From Betaproteobacteria bacterium (GTDB lineage: Bacteria; Pseudomonadota; Gammaproteobacteria; Burkholderiales; Eutrophovitaceae): a stretch of 64,000 nt of DNA. Positions within the stretch are counted from its first letter, which is position 1. Every line of letters begins with the position of its first letter. A program made the translations under genes and the position numbers. The notes beneath the pieces are model-generated. The model did no database searches, was not told the DNA's origin, and was given only the letters and a program-made list of their open reading frames with translations. Shown piece by piece: positions 7,701 through 36,932 of this stretch. Location of the stretch: the NCBI GenBank assembly GCA_020354125.1, contig CP070643.1:2836372-2900371 (forward strand), read 5' to 3'.

Positions 7701-10700
7701 GTATTCACGCCATTCGCGAGTTCAACCAGTGTATCGGCAAGGACTTTGGCGATCCGCGTGACGGCCAGGATGAGTGTCCAGTGGCGACGGAGCACCCGTA
7801 CTTCGGCCAGTTCGGCCGTGACGACTGGACCGGTGCGCGTACCACGCTGCAGCGCTGGTTTGCCGACCCGGTGGTCAACACTGCCGGTGTCGACCGTGGC
7901 CTGGGCATCATCTTCACCCACGACCACTACGGCCCTTCGACGCACCAGCAGGTCGGTCTGTACGCAACGGTGCTGACCGAGCCGGCTGGCTCGCGCTGGG
8001 TGCATAACGAAACCGGCGTGCAGCTTGGTGCCGGACCGGATGGTACCGGTGGCCGTAGCGACGGCGGCCCGACCTCATGGCAGGCGCAGATTCTGCCGCC
8101 GGATTCGGCCAGCTTTGGCAGCACCGTGCAGGCGGAAACGCTGGAACCGTTCCGCGAGTTCTATGTTGAGTTCAGCGACTTCCAGCATGCCTACGAGCAC
8201 GGCGTCTACGTCGGTGCCGGCCCGGATGGGCGTCCGTTGCCCGGGGCCGGGCAGGGTCTGCCGATGGCCGTGGCCAATCTGGGTAACCCGGAATTCACCG
8301 GCCTGGCAGCCGACGCCTTCCGCTTTTCCATCAACCCGCCGGCACGTCAGCAGTTCAACGCGCCGCTGTTTCCGAACCTGCAGCTAGAAGTCGCAGGTGG
8401 GCAGATTCCGGGTTGTCCGACGCGTCCCTGCCCGCAGGCAATCGACGTGCAGGATCCGGGCACTTTGGTGGCCAACTACCGCGCCGAGCCGGTCGGCCTG
8501 CGCGTGTTTGACCCCAATAAACAAGGGCCCGACGGCAAGCCGGGTACGCAGGCCGACGGCATCGCGGGCGATCTCGCCTTTGCGCTGTCAACCGAGTTGC
8601 GTGATGAGAATGGCGTCGTGACGCCAATCACTCGCGCAATCAATGACCTCAACTCGGTGACCGGCAAGGCACCGGCGGGGTACGTGCTCAATCAGGGTGC
8701 CTTGGCGGGTGACCCGTTCACGCCGATGTTCCGCAGCTATTCCGGGGACTTGGTGCGAGTGAAGATGCAGGCCGGTGCGCACGAGCACGAGCAAAACACC
8801 TCGATCCTCGGGTTGAAGTGGCTGCAAGGTGGCTCCGGTCATGGCACCGGGCCCAATAGCGGTTGGCGCAATGTGCAAGGTAGTGGCATCTCGGAGCAGT
8901 TCACCTTCCGCATGCCGATGAACCCGACGGCACAACAGCTGAACGACGCGGGCCAGACGGACTACGCCTGGACCATCGCGGCCCACATGGACGGCTGGTG
9001 GACCGGCACCTGGGGTCTGGTGCGCAAGTACGAGACCACACAGCCCGACCTCGCGTTGCTGCCTGGCAACGAGGAAGTCGATACCGCGCGGATCGTGAAC
9101 GAGAAAGACTTCAACGGCGTGTGTCCGAAGACTGCGCCGCTGCTGGAGAAGACGGTAATTGCGATCCTGGCCAACGAGCTGTTGCCCAAACCGGCAGGTG
9201 TCACCATCGTGCCGAACGGTCCGAACGGCACCAACGCGCCGCTGAATACGCAGCACGTTGGCGCGCCGCTCGATCCGGACGGCGGTACGCTGGTCTACAA
9301 CCCGCGCGACACCGAGGTCAGTGGTAATGTGCTCGGTCAAGGTCCGCAATCGTTCAATGGCCCGCTGCACGATCCAACGGCGATCCTCTATGTGAGCGCC
9401 GACGATCTCGAGCCCGTGCCTGGTCAGGCTGGCAATGTGTGCCGTGACCGCCCGAATAGGCCCGGCATTGCCAATCCGGAATGCCAGGTGCAACTCAAGG
9501 CCGGTCTCAAGGTCGAGCCGCTGATGCTGCGCGCCAACGCCGGTGACTGTGTCGAGGTGGCGCTGTTCAACCGGCTGCCGGCCCTGGTTCCCGACCTGCC
9601 GACACTGGCCACGCTGCAGGGTGTGGTCAAGCGCGAGCGGTTCGTCATCGATAATGGTGTCGATATCGGTTCGACCTTGTTCGACAACAACCTGATCGTG
9701 CCGTCGAGCCATGTCGGTCTGCAGCCGCAGCTGGTTGAAGTCGATGCGACACAGCACGCCGGTTACAACGTCGGCACCAACGCCGTGTCAACGGTTGGTC
9801 CGGTGCTTCCCAACGGCGACCCGGCCGACGCTATAGTCTACCGTTGGTATATGGGTCATATTGCAGGCAACAAGGTCAATAAGGGTATTGAGCTGGTGGC
9901 GACGCCGGTCGAGTTCGGTGGCTTCGGCCTGATGCCGGCCGACAAGGTCAAGCAGGGCCAGAAGTCGCTGGTTGGCGGCATGGTTGTGCATCCGAAAGAC
10001 GCAGTTGTGGTGGAAGATGCCAACCAGCATGCGCAGGCGACCGTTACCGTCAATGGCACGGCCTACCGTGACTTCATGGTGGTGATGACCAAGGACCTGA
10101 ACCATCGCTACAGGAGCGGCGATGCGGTACAGCACCTGAATGGTCAGCAGGTCGGCATCCCTGAAGACTCCGTGGAGAACTCGGGCATGGCGCTGAACTA
10201 TGGCATCGAGCCGCTCTGGTTCCGCATGGGTCTGCTGCCGAATGCACCGTTCGGTAATGCCGGCTGCGGTCCGAACTGCTACGGTGGTGTCGAGGATGCG
10301 CACACGGCCTACAGCAACACGGTGGTGCGCCGCGGCAACGTGGAGAACCTCGGTGATCCGGTGACACCGGTGCTGATTGCCAACGCTGGTCAGGAAGCCC
10401 GCATCAACTGGGCGATCCCGCACGGCGCCGGCCGCGGCACGCTCTTCAAGCTGCACGGCCATGACTGGCAGCGGGCACCCTATGTCTGCAACGGCAGCAG
10501 CCGCGATAATCTGACTGGAGCGTGTACGATGACCGAGGTCGGCTCGACCAGCATTGGCAAGAGCCCGTATGACCACTACTTCAATGGTCAGGACAGCCTC
10601 ACGCCGATGGGCCACTTCACTTTCCGCATCGAAAAAGCGGGCGGGGAAGGCCAGGTGGTCGGCGACTATCTGTACCGCGATTTCGGCTCGTTCGGTAACG

Positions 10701-26315: not shown

Positions 26316-26903
26316 CTAGCGCGGCGGCGGGTACTTGGCGAGCTTGCGCTGCAGGGTGCGGCGGTGCATCCCGAGCGAGCGCGCCGTAGCCGAGACGTTG
26401 TTGTTTTGCAGCGCCAGAACCCTGTGGATGTGCTCCCATTCGAGCCGGTCCACCGACAAGGGTTGCTTGCAAGCAGCGTTCGCCATTCCCGCGCCGTCGT
26501 CGAAGTCATTGGCAAAAGAGTCGAGCACAATATTGGCGCTGGTTGGTTTGGCAAGGTAGTCCCACGCACCCTGCTTGACGGCGCTGACGGCGCAGGCCAG
26601 GCTTGGGTAGTGCGTTACCACCACGCACTTGACCTTGCGGTTGATGCTTGCAATGGATTGCATGACTCGACACGCGCCGTCCGGCGGTAACCGCTGGTCG
26701 ACAACGACGTAATCCGGACTAATAGTTTCAATAAGCTGAGTTGCTTCGCTGACGTTGCTGGCTACGGTAACTTCCATTCCCCGGGCGTTGCCGGCGCGGG
26801 CCAGTTCGGCACAGAAATAATCCTCGACGTCGGCGATCAGGAGCTTCGGCGACCGCGCAAAATCGCGCAATGTTGCTTCGGCGCAAAGTTGATCCATCTT
26901 CAT
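26316..26903 (-). CDS. RegA/PrrA/ActR-like response regulator with Fis-type HTH
   Basis: A 195-residue regulator from the ATG at 26903, which has GGGAGA close upstream; ATG 26897 has better spacing. The receiver domain shows the acidic pair in LLIADVEDYF, the phospho-acceptor Asp in VVVDQRLPPDG, a Thr in VVTHYP and Lys in YLAKPTS. The C-terminal Fis-type helix-turn-helix reads VSATARSLGMHRRTLQRKLAKYPPPR, the hallmark of the RegA/PrrA redox family, which controls respiration and related genes through a RegB-type sensor. No RegB-like sensor is adjacent. An FNR-type site lies in the divergent upstream region. Confidence 0.85.
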   Translation of the reverse strand: MKMDQLCAEATLRDFARSPKLLIADVEDYFCAELARAGNARGMEVTVASNVSEATQLIETISPDYVVVDQRLPPDGACRVMQSIASINRKVKCVVVTHYPSLACAVSAVKQGAWDYLAKPTSANIVLDSFANDFDDGAGMANAACKQPLSVDRLEWEHIHRVLALQNNNVSATARSLGMHRRTLQRKLAKYPPPR

Positions 26904-27585
26904 CGTTCTCCCTAGTTCGATGAAACGTGGAAGAGGCCTCGGCAATTCCCTGCGATTACTGCTACTGCCGTTCACCCAGCCCCGCCCTTCGTTTTACTGT
27001 TTTTGTCTGCTCAAGTTCTCTTTGTGGTTGGCCTTGCTTAAGCTTCTTGCTACTCGGTGCTTCCTGTTACTTCCCTGCAATTTCCGGACAACAATGCCAA
27101 CTCGTCAGTTGATGACCGCGACCGATGAACGTTTCGTTCTCCGCTTTTCCCTATCACCGCGACCCGACCAGACAGTTTTGCTGACTTCTTTGGGCACAGT
27201 GACAAAGTCACACATCCGCAAAAAAGGTTAGCCAAAGTATCGCCAAATAGCAACGCAAAATCTAACGAATTGTTAAGTTCGATTGATCTTGATCAATTTG
27301 CCCAGTCTTCGTATAGAGCGTAGATTGTGTGCATCATTACTCATTAACCAACGGCCTAATGTTTGTCTCGTTTTCTCGGGTCACTACGTCAAATGGTGCG
27401 GTAATGCAAATGAGATTGAATTGCAAGTGGCGTGATCGGTCACGTTGAAAGCGCGACATCGGTGTTCTGCTGTTGGGTGAATGAGAATTGTTTTTGATAG
27501 AGATTGAATTTGCTGCGAAAGCGCAGAGCAGGTTCGTTGAAAAGCTTATTTGTTGACAAGCAATGACCAAAGCGTGACCACAGTG
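26904..27585. other. Divergent intergenic region with AT-rich segments
   Basis: This is the noncoding interval between the RegA-like gene (minus) and the orphan pseudopilin (plus). Apart from the FNR-type box at 27283-27296 I see no gene. A 103-codon frame at 26920-27231 lacks a ribosome site and recognisable content. Confidence 0.5.
27283..27296. promoter_or_regulatory. FNR/ANR-type binding site
   Basis: TTGATCTTGATCAA is a perfect dyad matching the FNR consensus TTGAT-N4-ATCAA. It sits about 300 bp upstream of the pseudopilin start and about 380 bp upstream of the divergent RegA-like start, so it could serve either. FNR-type regulators act under low oxygen. Confidence 0.6.
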
Positions 27586-28209
27586 ATGATGGGCTACCCC
27601 GATGGTTTGCCTAAGACCGTGTTGAGCTCAGCCGGTACGCAGAGCGGTTTTACATATATTGGACTGCTATTCCTTGTCGCCATTGTGACGTTTGCGCTGT
27701 CTGGTGTGGCGACGGTGTGGCACACCATGGCGCAACGCGAGCGTGAAGCGGAACTGCTGTTCATTGGCGAGCAGTTCAGTCAGGCAATCGAGAGTTATTA
27801 CCGGTGGTCGCCCGGGGGACCGCAGTTGCCGCGCTCGCTCGATGACCTGTTGCGCGATGACCGCTTTCCAATGGTGCGGCGTCACCTACGACGAATCTAC
27901 CGTGATCCGATGACCGGTTCGACAGACTGGGGGCTGGTCATGGAGGGTGACCGAATTGCCGGCGTTCACAGCTTGTCGAAGCGCAAGCCAATTCGGGTTG
28001 CCGGGTTCGATCGCCGTGAGTTCGAGGAGGCGGAAAGTTACGAAGACTGGCGGTTCGTCTACTCCAGAGCACGCCAAAGCAGGCGCAACGTTGCAACTGA
28101 GTCCGCTGAGTCTGCCGGGATCAGCGCGCTGCCCGTGATCAGAATGCGTAACCGACCGTTCGATAGTGCCCGCCATCGTGATGCGGTTACGCCACAGGCA
28201 ACGCCATAA
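27586..28209 (+). CDS. Orphan pseudopilin-like protein
   Basis: About 207 residues. A prepilin-like N-terminus reads SGFTYIGLLFLVAIVTFALSGVATVWHTMAQRERE; the +5 Glu of classical pilins is replaced by Gly (GFTYIG), as in some minor pseudopilins. It continues with LLFIGEQFSQAIESYYRWSPGG and PRSLDDLLRDDRFP, resembling GspG/PulG-like proteins of the module at the window start. The C-terminal 60 residues are Arg/Ser-rich and nonconserved. The start is uncertain (TTG at 27550 or ATG at about 27586, no clear ribosome site). It lies 27 kb from the other secretion genes. Confidence 0.65.
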   Translation: MMGYPDGLPKTVLSSAGTQSGFTYIGLLFLVAIVTFALSGVATVWHTMAQREREAELLFIGEQFSQAIESYYRWSPGGPQLPRSLDDLLRDDRFPMVRRHLRRIYRDPMTGSTDWGLVMEGDRIAGVHSLSKRKPIRVAGFDRREFEEAESYEDWRFVYSRARQSRRNVATESAESAGISALPVIRMRNRPFDSARHRDAVTPQATP

Positions 28210-28308: not shown

Positions 28309-28908
28309 GTGAGCCGTGCCGATCAGCGGAGCGCAATCAGCCGGCCAAGTGCGGAACAACCAGGCGTCGCGATTGTTTCTCGCGAATTTCATATACCAGG
28401 TGCCGACCAAGGGGCGCTTTTGCCTGTCCGTGGCTGTTTCGGCGGCAGAGAACGCGGGCCGGCCACTGCTCTCGTATGTGCCAACGGCATAGGCATGCCA
28501 ACCAAGTACACCGTACGCAAGCGCCCGGCCAGTGATGGCAAACCGGCGTTGCGCTACTCGGCGCTCGAGGTTGCCGACGAGCCGCACTGGGGGGTGCTAA
28601 GTGCGATCGACACCCGGGCACGCGGCAAGATCCGCTGGCAGACCAGGACCAAGGAAATCCTGGTCGCTGGTGTGGTGGCGACGTCCGGCGGCTTCCTGTT
28701 CATGGGTCAGGTTAGTGGTGAGTATTCCGCGTTTGATTCTGCCAGCGGTGAGCAGTTGTGGTCGTTTAACTGTGGCGCCGGTGTCAACGCGCCACCGATC
28801 ACTTACGCGTTAGCCGGAACACAGCATGTCACGGTCACTGCTGGCGGGCACAATCAGTTCGTCTTTCCGCGCGTTGAGGCGATGATTACCTCCGCGTTGC
28901 CGAAGTAG
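28309..28908 (+). pseudogene. 3' remnant of a PQQ-dependent (quinoprotein) dehydrogenase
   Basis: The open frame is 199 codons, but only its C-terminal part (from about residue 92) looks ancestral: WGVLSAIDTRARGKIRWQ, GVVATSGGFLFMGQVSGEYSAFDSASGEQLWSF, APPITYALAGTQHVTV. These match the last propeller blades (AxDxxxGxxxW repeats) of quinoprotein alcohol dehydrogenases, which are normally about 550-700 residues. Signal peptide, active-site region and most blades are missing. The first 90 residues show no family match. It is probably a non-functional stump. Confidence 0.65.
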
Positions 28909-29560: not shown

Positions 29561-30883
29561 ATGAGCAATTCCGCAGTCATTGAAGCCGCCATTCATGGCA
29601 ATGTCGTCAAGCAGGTAACGTTAAGCACGCAGTTCTCAGGACGATCAAGGAATCTGTCCTCGCGAGCTCCCGATCTTCCGGATTTTGTTTCTGCGCGCGT
29701 GGCGCGTTATTACCGTGAGCGCAAAGAGGGGAACTGGGGAGGACGGCACATCCTGCATGGGCGCACGCCGGGTCCGGATGCGCTACAGCTATCCAGCAAC
29801 GACTACCTGTCGATAGCCCGGCATCCGCGAATTCTGCAAGCGATGACGCGTTCGCTGGCGAACGAGGGTAACGGCACCCTGATGTCAGGAATTTTCCTGC
29901 ATGGTGACAATCCGCAACTTGACTTCGAAAACAATCTCGCGCGCTTTATGCAGGCCGAGACCGGTGTGCTCTGCCAGTCCGGCTATGCCGCGAATGTAGG
30001 GCTGATCCAGTCGATCGCCGGCGAACAGGCGCCGGTCTACGTCGACATGCTGGCGCACATGTCATTGTGGGAGGGGATACGCAGCGCTGGCGCCGAGTCG
30101 ATTGTGTTTTACCACAACGAACCCGAGCATCTGGAGCGACAGATTCTGCGCAACGGCCCGGGTGTTATCCTGGTCGATACTGTCTACAGCACCAACGGCA
30201 GTATTTGCCCGCTTCGGGATATTGTCGAGATTGCCGGCCGGCACGGTTGCGTTCTCGTCGCCGATGAGTCGCATTCGCTCGGCACGCATGGACCGAACGG
30301 AGAAGGCCTGGTCGTCGAACTGGGACTGCAGGATCAGGTACATTTCCGCACCGCCAGTCTCGCCAAGGCCTTTGCCGGTCGGGCCGGGATCATCACCTGT
30401 CCCTCGTCTTTCCGTGAGTACTTCAAATTCGAGTCGTTGCCGGCCATCTTCAGCTCAACATTACTGCCGCATGAGGTCGCTGGTCTGGCGGCGACGCTCG
30501 AGGTCATAGAGAGCGAGGGCTGGCGTCGCGACAAACTACGGGCCAATTCCGCTTATTTGCGCACGGGTCTGGATGATCTCGGTTACAACCTCAATGGCAG
30601 TCGCTCGCAGATCGTTTCATTGGAGTCTGGCACTGAACCACAAACAATCGTGCTGCGGGATGCACTGGAAGAACGAGGTATTTTCGGCTCGGTGTTTTGT
30701 GCGCCGGCGACGCCGAAAAACCGCGCCATGGTTCGCTTGTCGTTGCACACCAATCTGGATATGAATGACCTCGATCGCATACTGGTGGCGTGCGACGAAG
30801 CGCGTGCCATTACCGGATTCGAACACTGGCCGTCCACGCGGCGCAGGCGCAACGAGGTCAGACAGGCTGCTGTCGCGGCATAG
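29561..30883 (+). CDS. lqsA: Alpha-hydroxyketone autoinducer synthase (CqsA/LqsA family)
   Basis: A 440-residue PLP enzyme of the alpha-oxoamine synthase fold. Key features are SSNDYLSIARHP, GTLMSGIFLHGDNPQ, GYAANVGL, the cofactor Asp and His in VADESHSLGTHG (D235) and the Schiff-base Lys in ASLAKAFAGRAG (K269). MSGIFLHGDN and the neighbouring LqsR/LqsS genes separate it from KBL/BioF enzymes. Family members join an acyl-CoA to an amino-acid-derived backbone to give CAI-1/LAI-1-like signals. The ATG at 29561 follows GAGGAG with normal spacing; the frame upstream is noncoding. Convergent with the regulator gene. Confidence 0.9.
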   Translation: MSNSAVIEAAIHGNVVKQVTLSTQFSGRSRNLSSRAPDLPDFVSARVARYYRERKEGNWGGRHILHGRTPGPDALQLSSNDYLSIARHPRILQAMTRSLANEGNGTLMSGIFLHGDNPQLDFENNLARFMQAETGVLCQSGYAANVGLIQSIAGEQAPVYVDMLAHMSLWEGIRSAGAESIVFYHNEPEHLERQILRNGPGVILVDTVYSTNGSICPLRDIVEIAGRHGCVLVADESHSLGTHGPNGEGLVVELGLQDQVHFRTASLAKAFAGRAGIITCPSSFREYFKFESLPAIFSSTLLPHEVAGLAATLEVIESEGWRRDKLRANSAYLRTGLDDLGYNLNGSRSQIVSLESGTEPQTIVLRDALEERGIFGSVFCAPATPKNRAMVRLSLHTNLDMNDLDRILVACDEARAITGFEHWPSTRRRRNEVRQAAVAA

Positions 30884-30942
30884 CCGGCCTGAAAAGTCTT
30901 CGTCGAAGAGGTTGCAGCTGACGCTTGCTGGCCAGCTCACCG

Positions 30943-31962
30943 TCAGGCGCTGTGCCGGCTGCCGCTGTCCTCGTCGATTCGTTTCAGGTGATCCTGGAAG
31001 GTGCAAATGGGTGGCAACACCAGGCCGTGTGGTTCTTCCGCCAACGCATAGCGATAACGCTGCAGACCATTGCACTCGCTCGACGGGAAAACGTAGTCTT
31101 TCCAGGACGACGCGTACTGAGGTGTGTACAGTCCGCGACTACGCCAGAAATAGGGTACGACACTGCCTTTGCTTAGAGCATCCAGCAACTCGGGTGGTGC
31201 GGCATTATCAAAGGCCACCTGATAATGCAATTGCATCATCGCATCGTTGCAAACCAGCAGTTTGGTACTGGCACCTTCGGCGTCTATCATCAGCATCGCT
31301 TCCGGGCTACTGCATAGATAGTATTCAACGATGTTGAGATCGGCGGATAGCTTGCGAAACAATTCCGCGAAAAAAGGATCGCGCAGGAAATGCAACGGCC
31401 CAATCGCGAGTGCGCCTTCCATCATACGTTCGACGTTCGCGAAATAGACCGTCTGCATATCGCTAATCGCCTCCCGCAGAACGCTGGTGAGATTTGGGTC
31501 CTGCTTGGGGATGTAGCGATCGATAATCCCTTCGTTGAATGCCTGAACGGCGATTTTTTCGTCTGCTTTACCGGTGAGCAAAACCTTGCGTGCCGGGGAC
31601 TGCGAAATGCGGCGGCAAAGTTCCAAGCCGTCCATCTCAGGCATGTCATAGTCGACAACAACTACGGAAAAGCGATGGAAGCGCTTGTCATTAAAAACTT
31701 CTCTATAGATGCGCGCGATATTGAGATCAATGACGTGGTGGTCGAAAGATGGCTGCTCGCGTCCCTCATACAGCGTGAAAAAGCGCTCCGGGCCGGCTGC
31801 ATTTGCATGCACACTGCCGAGCGCGGCCAACGCCGTCAACGGTGATTCGAAAACGCGGTAGGCAAGCGATGGATCCAGGTTCAGACCAATATTGGCAAGA
31901 AAATCAGGGCTGTCGTCAATGATCGCCGTAGTCGTGGGGTGATAATAAGGGCGGACTTCCAT
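30943..31962 (-). CDS. lqsR: LqsR-like quorum-sensing response regulator
   Basis: A 339-residue protein. The receiver domain has the acidic pair IIDDSPD (D16, D17), a long insertion (about 45-95), the phospho-acceptor D104 in VVVDYDMPEMDG and the Lys of LLTGKADE. The C-terminal part (about 175-320) has no DNA-binding motif I recognise; it contains LCSSPEAMLMIDAEG and YRYALAEEPHGLVLPP. This is the layout of Legionella LqsR. It is encoded 2 bp downstream of the sensor kinase and convergent with the synthase, which supports the assignment. Output mechanism unknown. Confidence 0.8.
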   Translation of the reverse strand: MEVRPYYHPTTTAIIDDSPDFLANIGLNLDPSLAYRVFESPLTALAALGSVHANAAGPERFFTLYEGREQPSFDHHVIDLNIARIYREVFNDKRFHRFSVVVVDYDMPEMDGLELCRRISQSPARKVLLTGKADEKIAVQAFNEGIIDRYIPKQDPNLTSVLREAISDMQTVYFANVERMMEGALAIGPLHFLRDPFFAELFRKLSADLNIVEYYLCSSPEAMLMIDAEGASTKLLVCNDAMMQLHYQVAFDNAAPPELLDALSKGSVVPYFWRSRGLYTPQYASSWKDYVFPSSECNGLQRYRYALAEEPHGLVLPPICTFQDHLKRIDEDSGSRHSA

Positions 31963-31964
31963 GC

Positions 31965-33293
31965 TCAGACGTAGCTCCTCGGAAACGTTATCAGAAACTC
32001 GGAAAACTCACCGATTCGGGAACGGCAATCGATAGTACCACCAAATGCGTTGATGACCTCACGGCAAAATGACAGCCCGATTCCGGTGGTTTCGACGATG
32101 CCATCCCCGTGCTTTGGCCAGGAATAGTAACGAGTGAAAATATGCGGCAGTACGTCAGCCGGAATTCCCGGACCGGTATCACGAAAAACAAGGCGGCACT
32201 CTTGCTCGCCAGCTTCGAGTGCGATCGCAATTGTCCCTTTTCCGGCAAGGGAAATATGTCGTAGCGCGTTCTTCAACAAATTGAAGATGACATGGACCAT
32301 GAGCATCTCTACGCCGACGAAAGTGAAATCCGGCCGTGGTTTCCACTGTACCAATGCCCGGTCTTTCTCCGAATTGAACGGATAGCGCCGCAGTGCAACA
32401 TCGACACAGTGTGCCATTGAACAAGTGACGAACTCTTCTTTCTTCATGCGCAATCCGCGCACGCTATAGAGCAACATGTCAATGACTGTGTTGGATCGGT
32501 CTGCTTCTGCCTCGATCCGATCAAGCACGCCAGCCATGGACTCGAGGTGGACGGGGCGGATTGAGCCGGTCACCAACTGGTTCTTCGTGGCGAGTTCATA
32601 AGATTCCAACAATACCGGCAGGTGCTGGCGTACCCCGGTTGCGCCCGCCTTGATACTCGACAAAGGGGTACGCAATTCGTGGGCGACCATTCCGGCAGTG
32701 GCAAGCATGGCCTGTTGCCGTTCGGCGCGCATTTTCTCGCCGGTATAACTGACGATGATCCCCATAGCAATTGCAAACAGGAAAATCGGTACGTACTCGA
32801 GCGAGGCGATCATTGCCAACGCAGGGAAGCCGGCGGTAAAGTCGTACGCGGCCACGGCAATCAAAACGCCAACAGCGATGTGAATGAGAAGATTGATCGC
32901 GTCCAGCAAAAGAATCATGATAAACAAGGCGACGAGACTGGAGAGTAGCCAAACAGTCGATCCCTCGTTCTGCAGCAGCATGTAAGTGAAGAAAGTCGGC
33001 AGTGCTAACAGCAGCGCCACGTACCAGTAAAGCGGGAAGAAGCGTTTCAATGGTTCAGGCCAGAGTTTTGAAAAAACGACCGGGATAAAAACGGCCGCCC
33101 CCACCAGCCTCAACGGCAGGTTTTCGTACGGTTGGGGAAACAGGTCGTGCCAGACATAGTAGTAGAGGGGGAATCCGAAGACCGCGACCAGCCCGAAATA
33201 GACGTGACGAGACGAGAAGTTGGCTGTGTCGCGCTTGAAGGCGTTGATTGCCAACTTCGGCAAAGCTCTGACTCGAGAGAGCAGTGCTGTCAT
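31965..33293 (-). CDS. lqsS: LqsS/CqsS-like membrane sensor histidine kinase
   Basis: A 442-residue kinase with about six membrane helices (31-182), no extended periplasmic domain, and the H-box MVAHELRTPLSSIKAG (H205). The ATPase domain shows N-box VIFNLLKNALRH, G1 DTGPGIPADVLPHIF and G2 GIGLSFCREVI. LqsS and CqsS bind hydroxyketone signals through such a membrane domain. There is no fused receiver domain, unlike Vibrio CqsS, so it is closer to LqsS. It is likely co-transcribed with lqsR (2-bp gap). Confidence 0.85.
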   Translation of the reverse strand: MTALLSRVRALPKLAINAFKRDTANFSSRHVYFGLVAVFGFPLYYYVWHDLFPQPYENLPLRLVGAAVFIPVVFSKLWPEPLKRFFPLYWYVALLLALPTFFTYMLLQNEGSTVWLLSSLVALFIMILLLDAINLLIHIAVGVLIAVAAYDFTAGFPALAMIASLEYVPIFLFAIAMGIIVSYTGEKMRAERQQAMLATAGMVAHELRTPLSSIKAGATGVRQHLPVLLESYELATKNQLVTGSIRPVHLESMAGVLDRIEAEADRSNTVIDMLLYSVRGLRMKKEEFVTCSMAHCVDVALRRYPFNSEKDRALVQWKPRPDFTFVGVEMLMVHVIFNLLKNALRHISLAGKGTIAIALEAGEQECRLVFRDTGPGIPADVLPHIFTRYYSWPKHGDGIVETTGIGLSFCREVINAFGGTIDCRSRIGEFSEFLITFPRSYV

Positions 33294-33539: not shown

Positions 33540-36500
33540 TTACCAGGTGTCAACGCAAGCGCGTTTCTTGTCCGCGCGCGTCTGTCTCGGTGGCAGTGAG
33601 CGAAGCCCGGCCGTGACCCAGGCACGGGTGTCCGCCGGGTCGATGACGTCATCAATCTCGAAAAGCGTCGCGGTGCTCAGCGCCTTGCCGCGTTCATAGG
33701 CCTCGGCCACCATGTTTTCGAATTTCTCTTTGCGCTTTTGTGGATCCTCAATCGCTTCCAGTTCCTTGCGAAAACCAAGCTTGACGGAACCTTCTAGATT
33801 CATCGGTCCGAACTCGCCTGTGGGCCAGGCAACTGAGAACATCGGCAGATGGAAACTACCTCCTACCATACCCTGCGAACCAAGGCCGTAAGCTTTTCGT
33901 AGCACTACGGAAAAAATTGGCACAGTCATATTTGCGCCTATGACGTAGAGGCGGCAACAATGGCGTACCAGCGCTTCGCGTTCAGCGTCCGGGCCCACCA
34001 TATTGCCCGGTGTATCGCACAGCGACAGGACCGGCAGGTCGTAGGCATCGCAAAGTTGCAGGAAGCGCGCCGCCTTGTCGGCAGCATCTGAGTCGATCGC
34101 GCCACCCAACACCATGGCGTTATTGGCGATGAGCCCCATCGGCCGACCTTCGATGCGGATGAAAGCGGTAATCATTGCGGTACCGAAGTCGCGCCGCAGT
34201 TCCAGCACTGAGCCGGTATCGGCAATCAGATGAATCGCTCGTCGCACATCGTATACACGCAGGCGATTTTCGGGCACGACGTGGCGCAATTCGCGCTGAT
34301 CTGCACAAGACCATTCCTTGACTGGTCCCTGAAAGTACGAGATGTACTTTTTCGCGACTTGTACTGCTTCAGCTTCATCGGCAACCACGACGTCGATTAC
34401 ACCATTACGGCGTTGAACCGATGTGGGACCAACCTCATCGGGATGGTACACGCCCAGCCCGCCGCCTTCGATCATGGCTGGGCCACCCATGCCCAGCGAA
34501 GTCCTCTCGGTGGCGATAATCACATCGCAGCAACCGGCGACCACTGCATTGCCGGCGAAGCAGCGCCCCGAAACAACGCCAACCAGTGGAACCAGCCCGC
34601 TCAGTTTCGCCAGCAACGTGAAAGCCTTGATGTTGAGCCATCCGGAAGTGAGTATGTCGGTATCGCCGGGACGGCCGCCACCGCCTTCGGCAAAGGCGAT
34701 CACCGGCAGTCGCCATTCGGCGGCCAACTCGAAGAATCGGTCTTTCTTCTCGTGATTCTTGTGGCCCTGGGTTCCGGCCAGTACGGTGTAGTCATATGCC
34801 ATCACCATGCATCGCGCATCGACATCGGGAAACAGTGCGCCATTGACGCGACCGACGCCCATTACCAGACCATCGGCCGGCGTGCGTTTGATGAGGTCTT
34901 CCATTGTGCGCCGGCTGCGCTGAGCAGCGATGGTAAACGCGCCGTACTCATAAAAACTGTCCGGATCGCACAGGTCGGCGACGTTCTCCCGTGCTGTACG
35001 AAAACCGAGCTTGCGGCGCTTCTCGACTGCATCGGGACGCGCAGCATCGAGCGTCAGCGCGCGCCGCTGCTGAAGTTCTGCCAGGTCGGGCCGAATTGAA
35101 TCGAGGTCGAGTGCTTGCAGGGACTCAACCAGGTCGGACTGGTCTTCCGCCACGTTCACGGTCAACAGCGCCGCGCCTTCGAGAAGGGTCTGGTTCTGAA
35201 TGCCGCGCACGTCCTCGACGACACCAGCCACGGGGGAAACGATGACGTGCTCCATCTTCATTGCTTCCATGACGGCAACCTGCTGGCCGCGCCGAATCGT
35301 GTCACCGACAGAGACATCGATGCTGACGATAGTTCCGGAGATGGTGGCGGCGATTGCGCGCAAGCCTTCCGCTAGTGGCGCTTCTTCCATCTGGGCCGCC
35401 GCACCAATGTCGCGCTTGCCGTGACTCAACACCGCCAACGGGTCTACCGAATCGATGACGGCGGACGCAGCGGCGGGCGCGCTTGCGTCGATCAGTTCGC
35501 CGTACAGGCGCGGATGATCGGTCGGTGTACACAGCGTTGCCAGATTGTTTTCGATCAGCCCCGTGTACCAGTGTCCAGACAGGAAGTCAGCGGACGAGAT
35601 GAGATTGAGCAGGAACTCGCGATTACTGGAAACACCGCTGATGCGAAACTCGGATAACGCCCTCCGGGCCTTTGCCGCAACCGTTCTCAGCTGGCCTTCG
35701 GTATTCACGTGACCCGGTGCAACGTGCACGATGACCTTTGCGAGCAGCGAATCGAAGCGCGGGTTGACGCGAAAGCCGCCGTGCCCGCAGGTGTCAACGC
35801 GCACCCCGGGGCCAGCGGGCGGATCAAACGCATCGAGCGTTCCCGCAGCGGGTCGGACCATGCCATTGGCAGACATGGTTTCGGCATTGATGCGCACCTG
35901 CATTGCGATGCCGTGCATCGACGGTATCTCACCGTCGAACAAACCCATGTCTTTCAGTGTGCGGCCGGCGGCGATGTCGAATTGCGTGCGCACCAGGTCG
36001 ACGGCGGTTACTTCCTCGGTTACCGTGTGCTCCACTTGCAACCGGGCATTGGCTTCGATAAAGGCGAACTCTGATTGATCACCAGCTTCTTGTTCGACCA
36101 GGAATTCGAACGTCGCAAGGTTGCGCAGTTTGACCGCGCGCGCCATGCGCAGTGCTGCATCAATCAGCCGCTCACGCAGTTTGGACGATAGTCCGGGTGC
36201 CGGTGCAATTTCAACCAGCTTCTGTCGATTTCTTTGCAGGCTGCATTCGCGCTCCCAAAGGTGCGCGACATCGCCGCTGCCATCGCCGAGCACTTGTACT
36301 TCGATATGGCGTGCCTTGGGAAATAGCGTTTCAATATATACATCACCGTTACCGAATGCCTGCTTCGCTTCCGAGCTACAACGCTCGAAAGCCGATTCGA
36401 GTTCGGACGCCTCCAACACCTGACGCATGCCCCGGCCGCCACCCCCGGCAATTGCTTTGATCATGATCGCGCCGCCGCGGCCCAGCGACGTGAGGAATTT

Positions 36501-36932
36501 GCGCGCTTGCGCCAGTGTCGTGGGGCCATCGGTGCCAGGCAGAACCGGCACCTCGCACTGTTCGGCGAGCGCGCGTGCGCGTCCCTTGTCGCCGAACGCC
36601 TCGAGGACTTCCGGCGTGGGGCCGACGAACAGCAGCCCTGCCGATTCACAACTGCGGGCGAACTCGGCGTTTTCGCTGAGGAATCCATAGCCGGGGTGAA
36701 TCGCGTCGCAGTTCGCCTCGCGTGCGACATCGATGATTTGCGCCGCATCGAGGTAAGCGGCGGGGCCGGTACCTCTCAGCCGATGCGCCACATCCGCTTT
36801 GGTGACATGATCGGACTGTGCGTCATCTTCCGAATAGATTGCATGGGAGCGCAGGTTCGCTTCGGCAGCGCTGCGCGCGATACGAATTGCGATTTCGCCG
36901 CGATTGGCGATCAGTAGATGCTCGAGTTTCAT
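33540..36932 (-). CDS. Single-chain biotin-dependent acyl-CoA carboxylase (BC-BCCP-CT)
   Basis: A 1130-residue enzyme combining all functions. Biotin carboxylase covers about 1-450 (IANRGEIAIRI, HPGYGFLSENAEFA, IKAIAGGGGRGM, FIEANARLQVEHTVTE). The biotinyl domain is at about 520-595, with the biotin Lys K559 in EAMKMEH. The carboxyltransferase fills about 620-1120 (GGGGRPGD, GRCFAGNA, SLCDTPGNMVGPDAE). ACC and PCC of most bacteria are split over several chains. It probably carboxylates a short acyl-CoA such as acetyl- or propionyl-CoA; substrate is not readable. The following CoA-transferase gene starts upstream with a 35-bp gap, so the two form an operon. Confidence 0.9.
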   Translation of the reverse strand: MKLEHLLIANRGEIAIRIARSAAEANLRSHAIYSEDDAQSDHVTKADVAHRLRGTGPAAYLDAAQIIDVAREANCDAIHPGYGFLSENAEFARSCESAGLLFVGPTPEVLEAFGDKGRARALAEQCEVPVLPGTDGPTTLAQARKFLTSLGRGGAIMIKAIAGGGGRGMRQVLEASELESAFERCSSEAKQAFGNGDVYIETLFPKARHIEVQVLGDGSGDVAHLWERECSLQRNRQKLVEIAPAPGLSSKLRERLIDAALRMARAVKLRNLATFEFLVEQEAGDQSEFAFIEANARLQVEHTVTEEVTAVDLVRTQFDIAAGRTLKDMGLFDGEIPSMHGIAMQVRINAETMSANGMVRPAAGTLDAFDPPAGPGVRVDTCGHGGFRVNPRFDSLLAKVIVHVAPGHVNTEGQLRTVAAKARRALSEFRISGVSSNREFLLNLISSADFLSGHWYTGLIENNLATLCTPTDHPRLYGELIDASAPAAASAVIDSVDPLAVLSHGKRDIGAAAQMEEAPLAEGLRAIAATISGTIVSIDVSVGDTIRRGQQVAVMEAMKMEHVIVSPVAGVVEDVRGIQNQTLLEGAALLTVNVAEDQSDLVESLQALDLDSIRPDLAELQQRRALTLDAARPDAVEKRRKLGFRTARENVADLCDPDSFYEYGAFTIAAQRSRRTMEDLIKRTPADGLVMGVGRVNGALFPDVDARCMVMAYDYTVLAGTQGHKNHEKKDRFFELAAEWRLPVIAFAEGGGGRPGDTDILTSGWLNIKAFTLLAKLSGLVPLVGVVSGRCFAGNAVVAGCCDVIIATERTSLGMGGPAMIEGGGLGVYHPDEVGPTSVQRRNGVIDVVVADEAEAVQVAKKYISYFQGPVKEWSCADQRELRHVVPENRLRVYDVRRAIHLIADTGSVLELRRDFGTAMITAFIRIEGRPMGLIANNAMVLGGAIDSDAADKAARFLQLCDAYDLPVLSLCDTPGNMVGPDAEREALVRHCCRLYVIGANMTVPIFSVVLRKAYGLGSQGMVGGSFHLPMFSVAWPTGEFGPMNLEGSVKLGFRKELEAIEDPQKRKEKFENMVAEAYERGKALSTATLFEIDDVIDPADTRAWVTAGLRSLPPRQTRADKKRACVDTW

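Follow-up and report, generated by a model that had tools for sequence, protein, structure and literature searches.

Gene content and layout of the locus

The window analysed in this study is a stretch of 64,000 nucleotides. It comes from a 4.24 Mb genome on a single contig, of which it covers bases 2836372-2900371, and the completeness of this genome is estimated at 92.5%. At positions 29561-33293 of this window we found an lqs-type set of three intact genes, all of whose frames are open:

29561..30883, + strand: lqsA/jqsA-type alpha-hydroxyketone autoinducer synthase, 440 aa, with PLP lysine K269 (assigned by NCBIfam NF005526, structure 3hqt and the tree)
30943..31962, - strand: lqsR-type response regulator, 339 aa, with a receiver carrying D104 and a C-terminal output region (assigned by structure 6sy9 and Pfam Response_reg)
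31965..33293, - strand: lqsS-type membrane sensor histidine kinase, 442 aa, with H205 (assigned by Pfam HisKA and HATPase_c and by the CqsS alignment)

The first-pass annotation had described a complete synthase, regulator and sensor set with its catalytic residues in place, the regulator and sensor lying 2 bp apart and facing the synthase, and all of this was confirmed by the reading frames, the family matches and, for the layout, exactly by the coordinates. The sensor stop is separated from the regulator ATG by 2 bases, the synthase and regulator are convergent with 59 bases between their ends, and GAGGAG lies a short way upstream of the synthase ATG. The key residues were located in the motifs SLAK (K269 of the synthase), VVVVDYDMP (D104, the phospho-acceptor of the regulator) and VAHELRTPLS (H205 of the sensor). 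Proteins homologous to all three reading frames along their length are present in dozens of other genomes, and we therefore take the three frames to be real and not chance. Each of the three genes is present in one copy in the genome. Promoter-like sites at the cluster were found at a number near the shuffled expectation.

Identity of the synthase, regulator and sensor

The synthase scored 603.7 bits against the NCBIfam equivalog NF005526 for alpha-hydroxyketone synthases, far above its cut-off of 428, and the best solved structures matching it are those of the V. cholerae CAI-1 synthase (3hqt, E 3e-110). As LqsA/CqsA, BioF and Kbl share one PLP fold family, and as the BioF profile gives this protein 251 bits, it could be argued that it is an alpha-oxoamine synthase of primary metabolism which adjoins an unrelated two-component pair by chance, but this has next to no likelihood, since the BioF score is far under its cut-off of 426, the genome's own BioF and Kbl-like enzyme are encoded at other places, both fall outside the whole LqsA/CqsA group in the synthase tree with full support, and the linkage of the synthase to LqsR and LqsS is conserved across relatives. 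The score against PRK06939 (glycine C-acetyltransferase), 203 bits, is likewise below its cut-off of 460. Clustering with KBL/BioF-type enzymes, which the earlier reading had named as the finding that would speak against it, was looked for by phylogeny and is absent, the synthase grouping with LqsA/CqsA and, within the tree, with Vibrio cholerae CqsA. Nine residues have been listed as lining the acyl pocket of V. cholerae CqsA (PMC3285556); eight of them are identical in the synthase and the ninth is changed from V to L, compared with one or two of nine kept in the genome's own BioF and Kbl-like enzymes.

Residues 5-331 of the regulator, which span the receiver and the output region, match the solved response regulator PDB 6sy9 (E 1.9e-74), which we take to be Legionella LqsR, and the other solved matches listed for this protein cover the receiver region only. 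In the Pfam search the receiver (Response_reg) was the only domain named in the regulator, and its C-terminal output region carries no Pfam name. The activity of the LqsR output region is not settled (PMC10653808), and the separate LqsR of this locus gives a further case for asking what its role is.

In the sensor, Pfam recognized HATPase_c and, just below the cut-off, HisKA; hydrophobic segments lie within residues 59-180 and form a predicted membrane region. The protein aligns with Vibrio campbellii CqsS over both the membrane and the kinase parts. No receiver (Response_reg) domain was detected in the sensor by the Pfam search, in agreement with the first-pass annotation, whereas V. campbellii CqsS continues into a C-terminal receiver-like stretch. 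Vibrio CqsS feeds the LuxU/LuxO relay. Because the sensor of the window ends without a receiver, action through the separate regulator, in the manner of Legionella and Janthinobacterium and not of Vibrio CqsS, is the natural reading, and this proposal of the earlier annotation appears well supported by the architecture of the proteins. A second LqsS-like kinase of the LqsT kind was not found in the genome, the next match (E 8e-10) covering the ATPase domain only. Of the CqsS tail-length residues C170 and F175, F175 corresponds to V181 of the sensor when the GTG start is used for V. campbellii CqsS, a mapping that depends on the start chosen. Such a small residue would argue for a signal tail of at least ten carbons, and this point was not relied on in the analysis.

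Relation to known systems and proposed working of the module

To place the set among its relatives we compared 87 loci, mostly those of the 80 nearest synthase relatives, so that the sampling is biased and includes a few duplicates. The three genes occur together in most relatives' loci. In 52 of the 87 the synthase faces the regulator and sensor as it does in the window, and in 12 of the 87 (Luteibacter, Tahibacter and another Rhodanobacteraceae genome) sensor, regulator and synthase run in one direction; Cupriavidus has the synthase and sensor with no regulator adjoining. Clusters of lqs genes have been described as common across the alpha-, beta- and gammaproteobacteria (PMC10653808), and a betaproteobacterial case, jqsA/jqsS/jqsR, is described from Janthinobacterium sp. 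HH01, in which the phenotype of the jqsA mutant was partly restored by lqsA or cqsA (PMC3566124). The novelty implied by the first-pass annotation is not supported, as the same three genes, often convergent, are common and published; neither the gene set nor the convergent layout is new, and what we report is a sound identification of an ordinary known system.

The Janthinobacterium system resembles the present locus in being a betaproteobacterial cluster of a synthase, a sensor and a separate regulator, the regulator being present as in Legionella, but it belongs to another genus and is likened here by its published description and not by sequence. Legionella pneumophila LqsA/LqsR/LqsS are also clustered as synthase, regulator and sensor, the sequence comparison being for the regulator only (6sy9); this system differs in having an LqsT-like second sensor, and in the window no extra gene lies between regulator and sensor. 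The likeness to Vibrio lies in the synthase, which shares 49% identity with its V. campbellii counterpart and has nearly the same acyl pocket as V. cholerae CqsA, and in the sensor, whose membrane region is homologous to that of CqsS; the difference lies in the receiver-like stretch of V. campbellii CqsS, in place of which the window has a dedicated LqsR.

Taken together, the locus very probably constitutes a complete Lqs/Jqs-type alpha-hydroxyketone quorum-sensing module, one that was probably acquired horizontally. By analogy with characterized relatives, LqsA would couple an acyl-CoA of medium or long chain with a substrate derived from an amino acid, and further steps after LqsA would lead to a CAI-1/LAI-1-like ketone. 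This ketone would then be sensed by the membrane kinase LqsS, which would shift its kinase/phosphatase balance, phosphate would pass from H205 of LqsS to D104 of the separate LqsR, and the output region of LqsR may in turn alter cell behaviour. LuxI-type synthases gave no match in this genome, in a search in which the control genomes were also without a match. The locus adds one well-supported instance of a system known chiefly from work on Legionella and Vibrio, and does so in a lineage of which no other sampled member carries it.

Flanks and origin of the set

On one side of the set lie carboxylase and CoA-transferase genes in collinear arrangement with same-genus genomes; the similarity breaks off at 33541. 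The carboxylase, at 33540-36932, is a fusion of 1130 aa with biotin carboxylase, biotin carrier and carboxyltransferase parts, and has conserved counterparts in two same-genus genomes. On the far side of the lqs set, two genes form a segment whose orientation is opposite to that in a same-genus genome; this segment, 26316-28209, contains a short pilin-like ORF and encodes a response regulator whose helix-turn-helix is of the Fis type. Beside the set lies also an ORF at 28309-28908 that contains part of the beta-propeller of a PQQ-dependent dehydrogenase, near 28585-28830, and is apparently a gene remnant. Within its span we noticed one further feature:

28394..28461, - strand: possible relic of the neighbouring carboxylase gene, from its 3' end, matching the corresponding end of the carboxylase gene in a same-genus genome at 82.6% over 69 bp

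This relic runs in the same direction as the end of the live gene (33541-33609) and marks a synteny breakpoint beside the cluster. The position of the cluster at such a breakpoint, next to the carboxylase relic and the dehydrogenase fragment, together with the slightly lower G+C of the regulator and sensor genes than of their neighbours and the absence of the lqs set from same-genus genomes, would fit a module that is intact in sequence but acts as a listener only, or has started to decay, having been kept after transfer without a working signal loop. We consider this hardly probable, as the three open frames retain their catalytic and pocket residues, whereas with decay under way some of these should be missing.

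Concerning the origin of the module, the regulator was found in one of the 17 sampled genomes of the window's family, the window's own, and in none of the 16 others, and in 23 of 399 sampled genomes of the order. The nearest sets are from another family (code f23, genus g26), with identities of about 76-77% for the synthase, 71% for the sensor and 66% for the regulator. In a joint tree of synthase, regulator and sensor, two g26 sets form the sister group of the window's set and the third g26 set branches outside, all with 100/100 support. Constraining the three g26 sets to form a single clade lowers the log-likelihood by 33.5 units (p-AU 0.00015), a p value which is somewhat weakened as this test was picked once the identities were known. 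Two of the g26 genomes have RpoB proteins that are 92.7% identical to each other and 76-77% identical to RpoB of the window genome, which in turn is 84.5% identical to RpoB of a same-genus genome; the window genome evolves fast. From the joint tree, the patchy distribution, the synteny break and the carboxylase relic we infer that the set was likely acquired horizontally, with local rearrangement, from a lineage related to another betaproteobacterial family. This is held at moderate confidence because of the fast evolution of the window lineage. Given this, and since several genomes of the family are incomplete or reduced, part of the pattern could stem from loss elsewhere or from a transfer into the outlying g26 genome. 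Vertical descent within the window's family with loss in all its other sampled members, which competes with the transfer alone and leaves the identity of the module untouched, gains from the small or incomplete genomes of many relatives and from the fast-evolving lineage; we nevertheless find it unlikely, as the joint tree nests the window inside a genus of another family, with the alternative rejected as given above.

The nearest relatives share no convincing flank with the window beyond the three lqs genes, so that no larger transferred unit can be defined. If the whole synthase, sensor and regulator set moved together, this would suggest that the three genes make a self-contained unit. It may be speculated, though we rather doubt it, that a bare three-gene Lqs module is mobile, has moved between betaproteobacterial families and re-wires its new host via LqsR and an output partner, using an alpha-hydroxyketone of uncharacterized chain length.

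A separate observation was made in a small genome of the same order (G056, code f41), which has no LqsA match at E 1e-60 and encodes four LqsR-like regulators with 24-34% identity to that of the window (coordinates L148:2562-3509 and 9396-10331, L149:7083-7568). Two of the four are near large membrane proteins resembling sensor kinases, and this expansion of the LqsR-like family without its synthase merits a separate look.
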